64,000 bases of DNA from Polaribacter sp. IC066. GTDB taxonomy: Bacteria > Bacteroidota > Bacteroidia > Flavobacteriales > Flavobacteriaceae. Position 1 is the first letter of the stretch. Every line of letters starts with the position of its first letter. The translations under genes were made by a program, and so were the position numbers. The stretch covers positions 1-64,000 of the forward strand of contig NZ_VORR01000005.1 of assembly GCF_007997085.1 (NCBI RefSeq), read 5' to 3'. Positions 618 to 61,312 of this stretch are shown here, piece after piece. Below the pieces are notes generated by a model. The model ran no database searches, was not told the origin of the DNA, and saw only the letters and a list, made by a program, of their open reading frames with translations.

Positions 618-1373
618 ATGAAATACGCAATAAAGAAATTTAAAGACCATCAAGTTGCTGCTACAATTATAGAAGAAGGAGATTTACATGTAAAAATGAG
701 AGGAAATACCTATGAAGATTTATTTAAAGCGGCGGCTATAAAAGAAGCTTGGGACGCAATTTTAGAAAATAAAAATAAGCTTGCTACTTTAACAATCTAT
801 TGCCTAATTGGGCAACGTTCAGACAGACGGTTTCATGAAAATGAATCTTTCGATTTAAAAGTAATCTCTAAATTTATCAATAGTATGAATTTTGATGTTG
901 TTAAAATTTTACATCCGCATAGTTCGGTTTCATTAGCGTTGATAGATAATTCATCAGAGATAAATAGTTTTGAATATGTACAAAAAGCCTTCCATAAAAT
1001 CAGAAATCCTGTCTTAATTAGTCCAGATGCAGGCGCTTATAAAACTACGCATGAGATGGCAGAAAAACTAAATGCAGATATTATTCCTTCCAATAAGGTT
1101 AGAATTAAGGGCGTTCCTCAAATTAAAATACAGGGTGATGTAAAAAATAAAGTGTGTTTGCTTGTGGATGATTTAGCCGATGGCGGCAGAACATTTAAAT
1201 TATTAGCAGAAGAATTAAAGAAACAAGGTGCTAATAAAGTGTTCTTATATGTTACACATGCACAATTTAATTATGGTTTTGAAGAGCTTAAAAAAAGTAT
1301 AGAACATATTTTTTGCACCAATAGTTATAAAGATATTCAAGATGATTTTGTAACGCAGTATAGAGTAATATAG
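618..1373 (+). CDS. Ribose-phosphate pyrophosphokinase-like protein (PRPP synthetase family)
   Basis: The 251-residue protein has the two-lobed phosphoribosyltransferase-like fold of PRPP synthetases. The best landmark is the PRPP-binding loop near residues 187-205, CLLVDDLADGGRTFKLLAEEL, preceded by a hydrophobic strand. LISPDAGAYKT near residue 137 corresponds to the PDAG segment of the family. It is shorter than the housekeeping enzyme (about 310 residues), as is typical of copies linked to nadV. It probably supplied PRPP to the upstream NAMPT for NAD salvage. The partner is now truncated, so this gene may be the intact survivor of a dying operon. Family assignment is good; the role is inferred from the neighbour. 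Confidence 0.8.
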   Translation: MKYAIKKFKDHQVAATIIEEGDLHVKMRGNTYEDLFKAAAIKEAWDAILENKNKLATLTIYCLIGQRSDRRFHENESFDLKVISKFINSMNFDVVKILHPHSSVSLALIDNSSEINSFEYVQKAFHKIRNPVLISPDAGAYKTTHEMAEKLNADIIPSNKVRIKGVPQIKIQGDVKNKVCLLVDDLADGGRTFKLLAEELKKQGANKVFLYVTHAQFNYGFEELKKSIEHIFCTNSYKDIQDDFVTQYRVI

Positions 1374-1451
1374 TTGTACCCACAAACGTTAGCGCGAGCG
1401 TCCCGCTCTTGCCGATAAATATTATTACCCTGTTTTTACTTAAAAAAAGTT

Positions 1452-1592
1452 ATGAGTAGAAAATATAAATTCAGAGAAAAGTCAGGAGCATACTTTATAA
1501 GTTTTGCAATTGTAAATTGGATTGATGTATTTACGAGAGAAATTTATTTTTCTTGTATTATAGAATCTTTAGACTTTTCTAAAAAGATTTGA
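1452..1592 (+). pseudogene. RAYT (REP-associated tyrosine transposase) N-terminal fragment, copy 1
   Basis: This frame encodes 46 residues starting MSRKYKFREKSGAYFISFA and continuing VNWIDVFTRE, the conserved N-terminus of Y1-family REP-associated transposases of Bacteroidota (normally about 180 residues). A TGA ends it, so the catalytic HUH and tyrosine motifs are absent. It cannot be an active transposase. It lies between two inverted REP-like palindromes. Confidence 0.8.
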
Positions 1593-1742
1593 ATTAGTTT
1601 ATGGTCACGAGCAAGATGCTCGCGTTAACGTCTATTATGTAATGCGTTATAATATAATCTGCTTTTTTATTTATTACCGCAAGCGCGAGCGTCCTGCTCG
1701 TGCCGATAAATATTATTACCCTGTTTTTACTTAAAAAAAGTT

Positions 1743-1883
1743 ATGAGTAGAAAATATAAATTCAGAGAAAAGTCAGGAGCATACTTTATAAGTTTTGCAA
1801 TTGTAAATTGGATTGATGTATTTACGAGAGAAATTTATTTTTCTTGTATTATAGAATCTTTAGACTTTTCTAAAAAGATTTGA
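1743..1883 (+). pseudogene. RAYT N-terminal fragment, copy 2
   Basis: This is essentially identical to copy 1 (46 codons, same TGA), 291 bp downstream. The near identity of the two units points to recent tandem duplication rather than independent insertion. Confidence 0.8.
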
Positions 1884-2033
1884 ATTAGTTTATGGTCACG
1901 AGCAAGATGCTCGCGTTAACGTCTATTATGTAATGCGTTATAATATAATCTGCTTTTTTATTTATTACCGCAAGCGCGAGCGTCCTGCTCGTGCCGATAA
2001 ATATTATTACCCTGTTTTTACTTAAAAAAAGTT

Positions 2034-2174
2034 ATGAGTAGAAAATATAAATTCAGAGAAAAGTCAGGAGCATACTTTATAAGTTTTGCAATTGTAAATT
2101 GGATTGATGTATTTACGAGAGAAATTTATTTTTCTTGTATTATAGAATCTTTAGCCTTTTGTAGAAATATTTGA
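2034..2174 (+). pseudogene. RAYT N-terminal fragment, copy 3
   Basis: The same 46-codon frame as copies 1 and 2, but the last codons differ (ESLAFCRNI instead of ESLDFSKKI). This third unit is thus slightly diverged and may be the oldest. It lacks all catalytic residues. Confidence 0.8.
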
Positions 2175-2263
2175 ATTTGTTTATGGTCACGAGCAAGATG
2201 CTCGCGTTAACGTGTATTATGTAATGCGGTATAATATAATCTGTTTTTTATTTATTACCGTGA

Positions 2264-2476
2264 GTGCGAGTTTCTAGCTCATGCAAAATTTATAAATTAT
2301 TAAAAGGAAAAGATTTTATATTTCTTGAGTCAAATAAAAAAATATCCTGTAATACTTATTTAAAAAGTTTGTCTGTCTTAACTAAAAATTTCAAAAATGA
2401 TGAAGTACTATTTCCATTCCTAGAAATTTCAAGAGATTTACAAGAAATTATCAAAGGTGAAAAAATAAAATCTTAA
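2264..2476 (+). CDS. Short hypothetical ORF starting inside the degenerate REP edge
   Basis: A 70-codon frame starts at a GTG within the degenerate REP-like palindrome and ends just before a terminator. The body, from KIYKLLKGKDF onward, is lysine-rich and looks protein-like, but I do not recognise it. Because the start lies in repeat DNA, it is probably the 3' part of a gene cut by the repeat array rather than a complete small protein. Confidence 0.35.
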   Translation: MRVSSSCKIYKLLKGKDFIFLESNKKISCNTYLKSLSVLTKNFKNDEVLFPFLEISRDLQEIIKGEKIKS

Positions 2477-2530: not shown

Positions 2531-4984
2531 CTAATACAAACTCTTAAATTTTTGCGGATTAAACTCATGCATAATCTCATATACTTTCTCAAATACATCT
2601 TCGGCAGAGGGTTTTGAGAAATAATCGCCATCTGTACCGTATGCTGTTCTGTGTTCTTTAGCAGTTAAAGTTGATGGTTTGCTATCTAAATGTTCATATG
2701 CGTTTTGATTTTCTAAAATTTCTTGCAAAAGATATGCAGAAGCGCCACCAGGAACATCTTCATCCACCACTAATAACTTATTTGTTTTGGCAACACTTTT
2801 TACCGTGTCGTGATTTAAATCAAAAGGCAGTAAACTTTGTGCATCAATAATTTCGATATCAATACCAACTTGATGCAAATCTTTTGCAGCTTCTTCAACA
2901 ATACGTAAAGTAGATCCATAAGAAATAATCGTTAAGTCTTTGCCTTCTTTAATGGTTTCTACAACGCCAATAGGTGTTTTGAAATCGCCTAAATTTGTTG
3001 GCAATTCTTCTTTTAAACGGTAACCGTTTAAACATTCTATAACGAGTGCAGGATCATCACCTTCTAGTAAAGTGTTATAAAAACCAGCAGCTTTGGTCAT
3101 GTTTCGGGGCACTAAAACATGCATTCCTCTTACATTATTTATAATGCCGCCCATTGGCGAGCCCGCATGCCAAATTCCTTCTAGTCTGTGGCCTCTGGTT
3201 CTAATAATTAAAGGTGCTTTTTGTTTGCCAAAAGTTCTGTAACGCAAAGTTGCTAAATCATCGCTCATAATTTGAAGTGCGTACAGCAAGTAATCTAAAT
3301 ATTGTATTTCTGCAATGGGTCTTAAACCTCTCATTGCTAATCCAATTCCTTGACCAATAATTGTTGCTTCTCTAATACCAGTGTCAGAAATTCTAATATC
3401 TCCGTACTTTTCTTGCAAGCCTTCTAAACCTTGATTTACATCACCAATAAAACCAGCATCTTCACCAAAAATAACCACATCTTGATGTTTAGAAAGAATA
3501 GCATCAAAGTTATCTCTCATTATAATTCTGGCATCTACAAGATTTTTATTTTGAGCATACATCGGTTTATCCTCTAAAACATTTAGAGCAGCTAATTCAG
3601 TTTCGCTTAATAAATGGGTCGAATATTTGCCTTGAGCTATAGTTGTCGAAGTTTTTATAAAGTTTTGAAGTGCTACTTTTTCACTAAAATGTTCATCTTT
3701 TACATAGCGCAAACATTTTCTTGCAGCCGATAAAATATCTTTTCTTGTGGGCTCTGTTATTGCCGATAAATCGTTTTTATATTTCGTAATAAATGTACCG
3801 TTATTGCTCTTTGCAGCAACATTTTCTAATAACTCAACTGCAACTAAAAGTTCAGATTTTATTTCATTTAAGAACGCGTTCCATGCATTTCGTTTTGCAT
3901 TGGTTACTTCTTTTTTTGCTTCTTTTTCTAAAATAATTAAGTCTTCTTCAGAATCTACAAAACGTAAAATATCGCCAGTTTCTGTTTCTAATTCAAAATC
4001 TAGAATCCACTCCCGAAATTTTGTATTACAATCGTGCTCTTTTTCCCATTGTAAACGTTCCTTGCCCTTATATCTCTCATGAGAACCAGAAGTAGAGTGC
4101 CCTTGAGGCTGTGTTAATTCTTTAACATGAATTAAAACAGGTACATGTTCTTCTCTTGCAATTTTTGCAGCGTTTTGATAGATATCACAAAGTTGCACAT
4201 AATCCCAACCATTGATAACAAAGATTTCGTAGCCATCTTTTTCATGATCTCTCTGAAAACCTTTTAAGATTTCTGAAATACTTTCTTTGGTAGTTTGATG
4301 TTTTGCATGCACAGAAATACCATATTCATCATCCCAAACACTCATAACCATTGGCACTTGTAAAACTCCTGCGGCATTTATGGTTTCAAAAAATAAGCCT
4401 TCACTTGTGCTAGCGTTTCCGATAGTTCCCCAAGCAACTTCATTTCCTTTGTTAGAAAACTTGGTTTTATGTTTTACACTTTTTTCGTTTCTATAAATCT
4501 TGGATGCTTGTGCTAATCCCAACAAACGAGGCATTTGGCCGGCTGTGGGAGAAATATCTGCACTAGAATTATATTGTTTTGTTAAATCTTTCCAACTACC
4601 ATCTTCATTTAAACTGTGGGTAGCAAAGTGCCCACCCATTTGTCTTCCTGCAGACATAGGGTCTGCTTTGATGTCTGTGTGTGCGTACAAACCCGCAAAA
4701 AATTGTTGCGCTGTAAGCTCACCAATAGCCATCATAAAAGTTTGATCTCTGTAATAACCAGATCTAAAATCGCCTTTTTTAAAGGCTTTGGCCATCGCCA
4801 GTTGCGGTATTTCTTTACCGTCACCAAAAATACCGAATTTTGCTTTTCCGGTAAGTACTTCACGCCTGCCTAATAAACTACATTCTCTGCTAATTTTTGC
4901 AATTTTATAATCATTTAAAACTTCTTTTTTAAAGTCGTTAAAAGAGATTTCTTGTTTGTTTAAAGTAACTGTTTTTTGCAACAT
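2531..4984 (-). CDS. Fused alpha/beta E1 component of a 2-oxoacid (probably branched-chain) dehydrogenase
   Basis: The 817-residue protein joins both subunits of a thiamine-diphosphate E1 decarboxylase. The alpha half (about 1-480) has the cofactor motif region GNASTSEG near residue 189 followed by SVWDDEYGIS. The beta half (about 490-817) has VVIFGEDAGF, the SDTGIREATIIGQGIGLA segment and PASAYLLQEI-like C-terminal features. E1 decarboxylates a 2-oxoacid and passes the acyl group to the lipoyl domain of E2. Alpha and beta are separate genes in most bacteria; the fusion is common in Flavobacteriia. In place of GDG the motif reads GNA. A promoter element (5007-5014) lies 23 bp upstream, supporting this ATG. 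Substrate is not certain: branched-chain versus pyruvate cannot be settled by eye. Confidence 0.85.
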   Translation of the reverse strand: MLQKTVTLNKQEISFNDFKKEVLNDYKIAKISRECSLLGRREVLTGKAKFGIFGDGKEIPQLAMAKAFKKGDFRSGYYRDQTFMMAIGELTAQQFFAGLYAHTDIKADPMSAGRQMGGHFATHSLNEDGSWKDLTKQYNSSADISPTAGQMPRLLGLAQASKIYRNEKSVKHKTKFSNKGNEVAWGTIGNASTSEGLFFETINAAGVLQVPMVMSVWDDEYGISVHAKHQTTKESISEILKGFQRDHEKDGYEIFVINGWDYVQLCDIYQNAAKIAREEHVPVLIHVKELTQPQGHSTSGSHERYKGKERLQWEKEHDCNTKFREWILDFELETETGDILRFVDSEEDLIILEKEAKKEVTNAKRNAWNAFLNEIKSELLVAVELLENVAAKSNNGTFITKYKNDLSAITEPTRKDILSAARKCLRYVKDEHFSEKVALQNFIKTSTTIAQGKYSTHLLSETELAALNVLEDKPMYAQNKNLVDARIIMRDNFDAILSKHQDVVIFGEDAGFIGDVNQGLEGLQEKYGDIRISDTGIREATIIGQGIGLAMRGLRPIAEIQYLDYLLYALQIMSDDLATLRYRTFGKQKAPLIIRTRGHRLEGIWHAGSPMGGIINNVRGMHVLVPRNMTKAAGFYNTLLEGDDPALVIECLNGYRLKEELPTNLGDFKTPIGVVETIKEGKDLTIISYGSTLRIVEEAAKDLHQVGIDIEIIDAQSLLPFDLNHDTVKSVAKTNKLLVVDEDVPGGASAYLLQEILENQNAYEHLDSKPSTLTAKEHRTAYGTDGDYFSKPSAEDVFEKVYEIMHEFNPQKFKSLY

Positions 4985-20410: not shown

Positions 20411-20491
20411 ACCATCAACCATCAACCATCAACCATCAACCATCAACCATCAACGAAAAACGAAAAACCAACAACCAACAACCAACAACCA
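20411..20491 (+). repeat. Two heptanucleotide tandem repeats before xerC
   Basis: Six perfect copies of ACCATCA occupy 20411-20452; three copies of ACCAACA plus a partial fourth occupy 20467-20491. They stand between the rpsU terminator and the proposed xerC start. Period-7 repeats also occur at 61265-61312 and near 63152. Confidence 0.9.
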
Positions 20492-30575: not shown

Positions 30576-30640
30576 CAGTATTCAGTGAGCAGTCTGCTTC
30601 TGAATACTGGATACTGAATACTGCCAACTGAATATTGAAT
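30576..30640. repeat. Hairpin-forming repeat in the rpoB-rpoC spacer
   Basis: CAGTATTCAG (30576-30585) and CTGAATACTG (30600-30609) are perfect inverted repeats, with a further AGCAG/CTGCT pair inside. The word CTGAATA(C/T)T recurs twice more downstream to 30640. The spacer is thus filled by a short palindromic repeat rather than the few bases seen in many genomes. Confidence 0.8.
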
Positions 30641-30654
30641 ACTCATTAAAAGAC

Positions 30655-61264: not shown

Positions 61265-61312
61265 GCCAAAAGCCAAAAGCTAAAAGCCAAAAGCCAAAAG
61301 CCAAAAGCCAAG
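61265..61312. repeat. Heptanucleotide tandem repeat (GCCAAAA)n
   Basis: Six copies (one GCTAAAA variant) plus a partial seventh lie directly downstream of the hemJ stop codon. The unit length matches the repeats in front of xerC though the sequence differs. Confidence 0.9.

Follow-up and report, generated by a model that had tools for sequence, protein, structure and literature searches.

How did three copies of one fragment of a REP-associated transposase (RAYT) gene, each framed by opposed palindromes, come to stand in tandem in Polaribacter sp. IC066, and did they multiply by transposition or by duplication in place? The window, i.e. the whole stretch of 64,000 nucleotides that was analysed, presented a tandem array at 1391-2260 with a period of 291 bp, 3.0 copies and 98 % matches (TRF); a direct-repeat search placed three repeats of exactly 291 bp at 1391-1681 (unit 1), 1682-1972 (unit 2) and 1973-2263 (unit 3), all on the plus strand. 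Each unit consists, in this order, of a left palindrome GCGCGAGCGTCCYGCTC, a leader of about 40 bp, an open reading frame of 46 codons from the ATG (46 aa, starting with MSRKYKFREKSGAYFISFAIVNWIDVFTREIYFSCIIESL), an inverted right palindrome CACGAGCAAGATGCTCGCG and a spacer of about 60 bp. The left palindromes, treated below as REPs, occupy 1388-1412, 1679-1703 and 1970-1994 on the plus strand, the right ones 1606-1629, 1897-1920 and 2188-2211 on the minus strand, and the reading frames 1452-1592, 1743-1883 and 2034-2174 on the plus strand. The first-pass annotation had described three such units with 46 RAYT codons and two opposed palindromes each, and this was confirmed; a fourth, degenerate left palindrome, GCGAGTTTCTAGCTCATGC, which was not counted there, closes the array at 2260-2284 (palindrome proper 2264-2284, plus strand). 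The array sits between the convergent ends, at 1373 and 2531, of a gene with a phosphoribosyltransferase domain (618-1373, plus strand) and a gene of the 2-oxoacid dehydrogenase E1 type (2531-4984, minus strand), and its palindromes are intergenic. The space between convergent genes is a usual location of REPs. Between array and E1 gene, at 2285-2476, lies a small reading frame; the listed matches of the E1 region start at 2458 at the earliest. Elsewhere in the window three heptamer repeats were noted as possible phase-variation tracts, ACCATCA (11.6 copies, 20411-20491), GCCAAAA (6.7 copies, 61265-61311) and CTGAATA (6.3 copies, 30600-30643), and two reading frames of 949 aa were compared as potential duplicates and rejected as such.

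The affiliation of the reading frames to the RAYT family is supported through relatives. The N-terminus of all three units was 84-86 % identical over 44-45 aa to a full-length RAYT in a congener, genome G405, which matched the family model NF047646 (REP_Tyr_transpos) with 99.5 bits at a cut-off of 80. The remnants themselves are not recognized by such models: a Pfam scan of two of the 46-aa frames found nothing, and two of the three tested against NF047646 gave no match and 12.3 bits, respectively. The G405 protein matched weakly (E 0.0011) the solved TnpAREP structure 4er8, presumably the E. coli protein, and its Tyr144 aligned to position 115 of that structure. The Y115F variant of the E. 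coli protein has been called a catalytic mutant (PMC8266576). The HUH motif of the G405 protein is H60-I-H62 and its catalytic tyrosine Y144, all located beyond codon 46, and both the HIH of codons 60-62 and the tyrosine of codon 144 are missing from the units of the window.

The claim that each unit carried nothing of the RAYT gene beyond its first 46 codons had to be modified. In unit 3, the stretch between reading frame and right REP aligned to the 3' end of the full-length gene (GAAATA..TTAAATTAGATTAAAGC) with a score of 20, which was equalled in 2 of 500 shuffles for the gene of genome G513 and in 1 of 500 for that of G405; the alignment was anchored at the end, as aligning the units jointly with the full-length genes left the 3' ends unaligned. 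This probable trace of the last five or so codons and the stop region lies at 2164-2187 on the plus strand and adjoins a right REP that is identical to the right REP of G405 over its 19 bases, which indicates that the gene was internally deleted and not merely beheaded. A unit is probably a RAYT gene without its middle, with about 42 codons of the 5' end and a trace of the 3' end retained. At the deletion junction, where G405 has the motif SLDFCRK, unit 3 keeps the C and the R while units 1 and 2 keep the D, thus neither version is simply the older one.

The identification of the palindromes as REPs held as well. With up to three mismatches, the left-type pattern GCGCGAGCGTCNYGCTC had 6 matches in the window and the right-type pattern, given above, 5, all within the array; shuffled sequence gave expectations of 0.02 and 0.00. 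A foot of the type GYTR was counted over 64 sites in 11 stretches of 8 genomes, including the 7 sites of the window: G was present in 63, C or T in 61, T in 59 and A or G in all 64. Within the window, the foot is GTTA at left REP 1 and, read on the minus strand, at all three right REPs, GCAA at left REPs 2 and 3 and GTGA at the terminal REP. In contrast to the GYTR of most sites, canonical REPs carry GT[AG]G, from which subclass 2.6, mostly found in Bacteroidetes, is described to depart; subclasses 2.4 and 2.6 are the RAYT types of Bacteroidetes in that classification (PMC6006769). As single-stranded DNA, four hairpin stretches folded with -5.1 to -8.6 kcal/mol, and 23, 18, 3 and 13 of 200 shuffles folded equally well; the terminal hairpin at 2264 has decayed (-2.1 kcal/mol, equalled by 97 of 200 shuffles). 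The folding suggested by the first-pass annotation thus separated single hairpins mildly from chance, and the case for REPs rests on sequence, foot and relatives. Matches of the REP patterns on both strands numbered 43 in genome G429, 23 in G432, 3 in G405 and 4 in G513, some sites being counted on both strands. In short, the palindromes of the window are short, imperfect and intergenic with a conserved tetranucleotide 5' foot, as expected of REPs, but the many dispersed copies of a REP family were not found in the own genome.

This lack extended to the entire unit. No other copy of the 291-bp unit was detected in the 169 contigs of the assembly; a fourth, weak DNA match (contig C74, 27291) was located inside the frame of another gene and was taken as chance. 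All six genomic matches of the hairpin pattern with at most one mismatch were within the array, and the reversed pattern had none. As for a hidden cognate transposase of full length, seven Y1_Tnp matches were read as protein and none had the N-terminus of the array. None of four NF047646 matches reached the cut-off of 80 bits; the best one (58.9 bits, contig C158) suggests that the genome may hold a RAYT-like gene of a different type. A search for the REP and a full-length RAYT, named in the first-pass annotation as a check, was thus negative in the own genome, while both exist in relatives. Multiplication of a non-autonomous unit by transposition was not demonstrated here, as the unit was found nowhere else in this genome.

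The differences among the units tell more about their origin. Of the 291 sites, only two, 14 and 19, distinguish unit 1 from unit 2, and at both unit 2 has the state of unit 3. Units 2 and 3 differ at 17 sites, all from position 183 onwards and with a tail that is partly out of register by an indel of one nucleotide, and at all 17 unit 2 has the state of unit 1. Seven clean substitutions separate units 2 and 3, all of them at positions 183-257 of the 271 compared, thus in the last third; a difference-free end of such length has a chance of 0.0003 for one end or 0.0007 for either end, in a test picked after the pattern had been seen. From its site pattern, unit 2 is best read as a recombinant of the 5' part of unit 3 and the 3' part of unit 1. 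This argues for unequal exchange or slippage rather than for three insertions, and independent transpositions of units 1-3 were rejected on this basis. The mosaic could alternatively reflect two later point mutations in unit 1 together with a gene conversion that affected the 5' parts. On their left side, REPs 2 and 3 share the sequence context of the terminal REP, and on their right side that of REP 1; an exchange between REP 1 and the terminal REP, which point in the same direction and flank the deleted gene, would produce this arrangement. The recent origin proposed earlier for units 1 and 2 is consistent with these data, and the mosaic points to local exchange; of the two explanations offered then, repeated slippage fits best.

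An ancestral state of the locus was sought in the relatives. A search of 166 congeners with the complete RAYT of G405 gave matches at E <= 0.01 in 47 of them. Genomes G405 and G513 each have a RAYT of 182 aa (96 % identity between the two) 3' of the E1 gene that also adjoins the array, in the order REP (decayed in G405), RAYT, REP, spacer, REP', REP. The REP' sequence, GCGAGTTTCAAACTCGTGC, lies downstream of the RAYT in both genomes, and the terminal REP of the window is of the REP' type. An intact RAYT flanked by cognate REPs, the hallmark of a REPtron, is thus present in G513 and, with a decayed left REP, in G405, but not in the window. E1 had a match in 160 genomes, and the 30 that matched best were placed in a tree of this gene; there the window was nearest to G458, and G405 and G513 belonged to another clade. 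At the E1 locus of G458 neither a RAYT nor a REP was seen; in G499, on a different branch, E1 is accompanied by a REP and the decayed start of a RAYT. With this placement, several losses or a transfer of the block between species must be assumed. At 91 % over 44 aa, the N-terminal peptide resembled Flavobacterium pokkalii more closely than G405, and DNA identity over 135 nt was highest, at 0.84, with G405, two other congeners and one Flavobacterium.

Several loci in these genomes showed duplications of their own. In G499 (locus L107, contig C1), the end of the E1 gene with its terminator is present twice, on both sides of the REP and the decayed RAYT start. Contig C1 of G451 (L164, L165) has four RAYT copies of equal score, and two that were compared belong to a repeat that extends over 3.28 kb or more at 99.6 % identity. 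In G409 (C1:2211500-2229500, L080) a RAYT is part of a tandem repeat of 7312 bp, with three copies in the stretch and 99.97-99.99 % identity where compared. Ribosomal RNA repeats as the cause of these multicopy RAYTs in G409 and G451 were dismissed, as two loci tested had no Rfam match.

We consider it probable that the array is a vestigial REPtron, which lost the core of its RAYT and then multiplied in place, bounded by its REPs, to an array of the BIME/REPIN kind. In the ancestor, a RAYT gene between two opposed REPs would have adjoined the E1 gene, and another left-type REP would have followed downstream. About 400 bp would then have been deleted from the middle of the gene, between roughly codon 43 and its final few codons, and with them the HUH motif and the tyrosine. 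The same-direction left REPs bounding the deleted unit could subsequently have provided the homology for duplicating it in tandem, through either unequal exchange or slippage during replication, and the REP hairpins would favour polymerase switching. The block of REP, deleted RAYT, REP and spacer would thus have been doubled and later tripled, the last step being an exchange inside the units, with a BIME/REPIN-like array as outcome in which a dead transposase gene forms the linker. We infer that the deletion occurred at the window locus and preceded the duplication, and that the array has no present function; the duplication itself may have proceeded by slippage or by crossover. Besides the placement of E1 in the tree, the closeness of the peptide to F. 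pokkalii, the possible later mutations in unit 1 and the conflicting residues at the deletion junction, three observations count against a vestigial REPtron: the upstream neighbours of the E1-side RAYT block differ between the window and G405/G513, the leader from left REP to ATG measures about 40 bp in the window versus about 200 bp in G513, and the 3' trace comprises just about 24 AT-rich bases. The first interpretation of this locus is thus supported in part: RAYT, REP, recency and slippage were retained, and transposition of the unit was not demonstrated.

Comparable arrays were present in relatives, in stretches chosen for repeated REP matches or the presence of a RAYT. Tandem arrays bounded by REPs were found in G435 (206 bp, 3.0 copies), G429 (218 bp, 6.1 copies), G432 (206 bp, 2.7 copies), G472 (352 bp, 2.2 copies) and G433 (310 bp, 2.0 copies), and the RAYT of G429 showed three overlapping arrays (206 bp, 2.6 copies; 449 bp, 2.3 copies; 249 bp, 3.0 copies). 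The array of G472 comprises a full-length RAYT followed by two copies in which about codons 1-27 are joined to codons 153-182, and G435 has one deleted copy of this type. Directly after the 206-bp array of G435 (L161, 1194-1364), the heptamer TGCTTAC is repeated 24.4 times with 100 % matches. Among 78 loci compared, out of the best 80 of 132, Epilithonimonas hispanica (NZ_QNUG01000003.1; L217, 3337-4084) carries 3.0 copies of a 166-bp unit with two opposed REPs and 19 RAYT codons that runs into an intact RAYT, with an older copy of 37 codons upstream of the array, and in Flavobacterium rivuli (L177) and Flavobacterium sp. CF108 (L187) the 3' end of the RAYT is repeated together with its REP. 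Part copies near a full-length RAYT were also seen at four loci (L185, L199, L222, L232). The array of the window appears therewith ordinary in mechanism, a local duplication bounded by REPs, and unusual in content, since a dead RAYT serves as the linker; relatives offer parallels.

Deleted RAYTs with both gene ends were observed in nine genomes: G000 and G423 (three each), G472 and G346 (two each), and G435, G033, G353, G329 and G157 (one each), the copy of G157 and one of G423 being judged by eye from translations. The sample consisted of chosen stretches, 20 from matches and 40 picked mostly for short frames, thus the count of nine genomes is not a rate. Deleted copies were sought mainly with the N-terminal query and short frames, by which fragments containing the N-terminus are over-represented; fragments of the C-terminus alone were found in G415, G456 and G518. 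A hairpin scan (stems of at least 6 bp) detected REP-type hairpins next to deleted RAYTs in the window, G472 and G435; next to the deleted RAYTs of G033, G353, G346, G157 and G423 it detected no hairpins or hairpins of another kind (G329 was outside the scan). Outside the close relatives, many deleted RAYTs may accordingly be plain pseudogenes.

One pair among these copies raises the possibility of movement. Two deleted RAYTs in G423 (L071, C1:567000-573000, at 1580 and 3548) share a common deletion and lie 1968 bp apart; they are 89 % identical over 315 bp with 15 gap positions, from a REP-like hairpin (recognized by eye) to shortly past the RAYT end, and their flanks are unrelated. The G405 query matched no full-length RAYT in that genome, and a distant type could be missed. 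Such elements may therefore move, and we keep as a rival that the unit of the window is a mobile miniature REPtron: a REP-bounded deleted RAYT moved in trans by a RAYT now lost, with the tandem copies as insertions beside an existing REP foot. The unit borders at the REP foot are in line with it. We regard this as rather unlikely, since neither the unit nor a REP was found dispersed in the own genome, unit 2 is a composite rather than the copy of a single source, the deleted copies found in G472 and G435 adjoin the full-length gene, and REP-type hairpins at deleted copies were confined in the scan to these two genomes and the window. A wider proposal, to which we assign little probability, has internally deleted RAYTs with both gene edges and REPs as recurring, RAYT-dependent miniature elements (mini-REPtrons) in Flavobacteriales, whose stepwise shortening would give birth to REPIN families from a RAYT locus; the array of the window would be an intermediate frozen after the loss of the RAYT.

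Simple decay, in which the RAYT rotted in place and was then caught in a tandem duplication unrelated to REPs, has in its favour that N-only, C-only and frameshifted RAYT fragments occur in genus and family, several of them without REP-type hairpins in the scan. It seems improbable for the array of the window, where, as in G472, the array edges coincide with REPs, and relatives have REP-bounded tandem arrays also away from a RAYT gene. Extra units made by the assembler are very improbable even in a draft of 169 contigs with the array 1.4 kb from a contig end, because many sites distinguish unit 2 from unit 3, a single contig spans the array with unique flanks on both sides, and a collapse would drop units, not add them.

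A vestigial REPtron also finds its place among known systems. Tandem clusters of BIMEs or REPINs including flanking sequence are known (PMC3116915, PMC2817692): in P. fluorescens SBW25, three higher-order tandem clusters of opposed REP pairs are situated next to RAYT genes, and the spacing of REP doublets peaks at 71 and 110 bp (PMC3116915). The array of the window resembles such a BIME-2 or tandem REPIN cluster in its opposed REP pairs repeated in tandem with a linker, and differs in that the linker is a deleted RAYT and the unit measures 291 bp. Tandem REPINs are gained and lost locally, e.g., five of six were lost in one mutation-accumulation line of E. coli (PMC8049555). A survey has covered RAYT genes with REPs, or longer inverted repeats, on their flanks (PMC3733652); the unit shares with a REPtron the order left REP, RAYT start, trace of the RAYT end and right REP, but the array lacks HUH motif and tyrosine, has three copies and is without a genomic REP population. 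RAYT pseudogenes with nonsense mutations, frameshifts and deletions were reported from pseudomonads and stenotrophomonads; the tandem multiplication after deletion that is present in the window is not mentioned in the account given there of such genes (PMC3686654). A search by title and start of abstract, with most subscription journals outside it, gave no report on arrays with RAYT edges in the unit. MITEs can derive from IS elements by internal deletion, with both ends kept and the transposase core lost. The unit of the window likewise keeps both ends without the core, but dispersed copies with similarity bounded by the element were absent from the own genome and present as a single pair in G423, thus a MITE-like mobility is not demonstrated here.

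Loci in which RAYT edges and REPs are repeated together, in forms that vary among species, could be intermediates in the origin of REPINs from the ends of RAYT genes. They suggest that REPs border local amplification even where no cognate transposase gene remains. For the annotation of Flavobacteriaceae genomes they also advise caution, as short reading frames annotated as RAYT can be the debris of such arrays.
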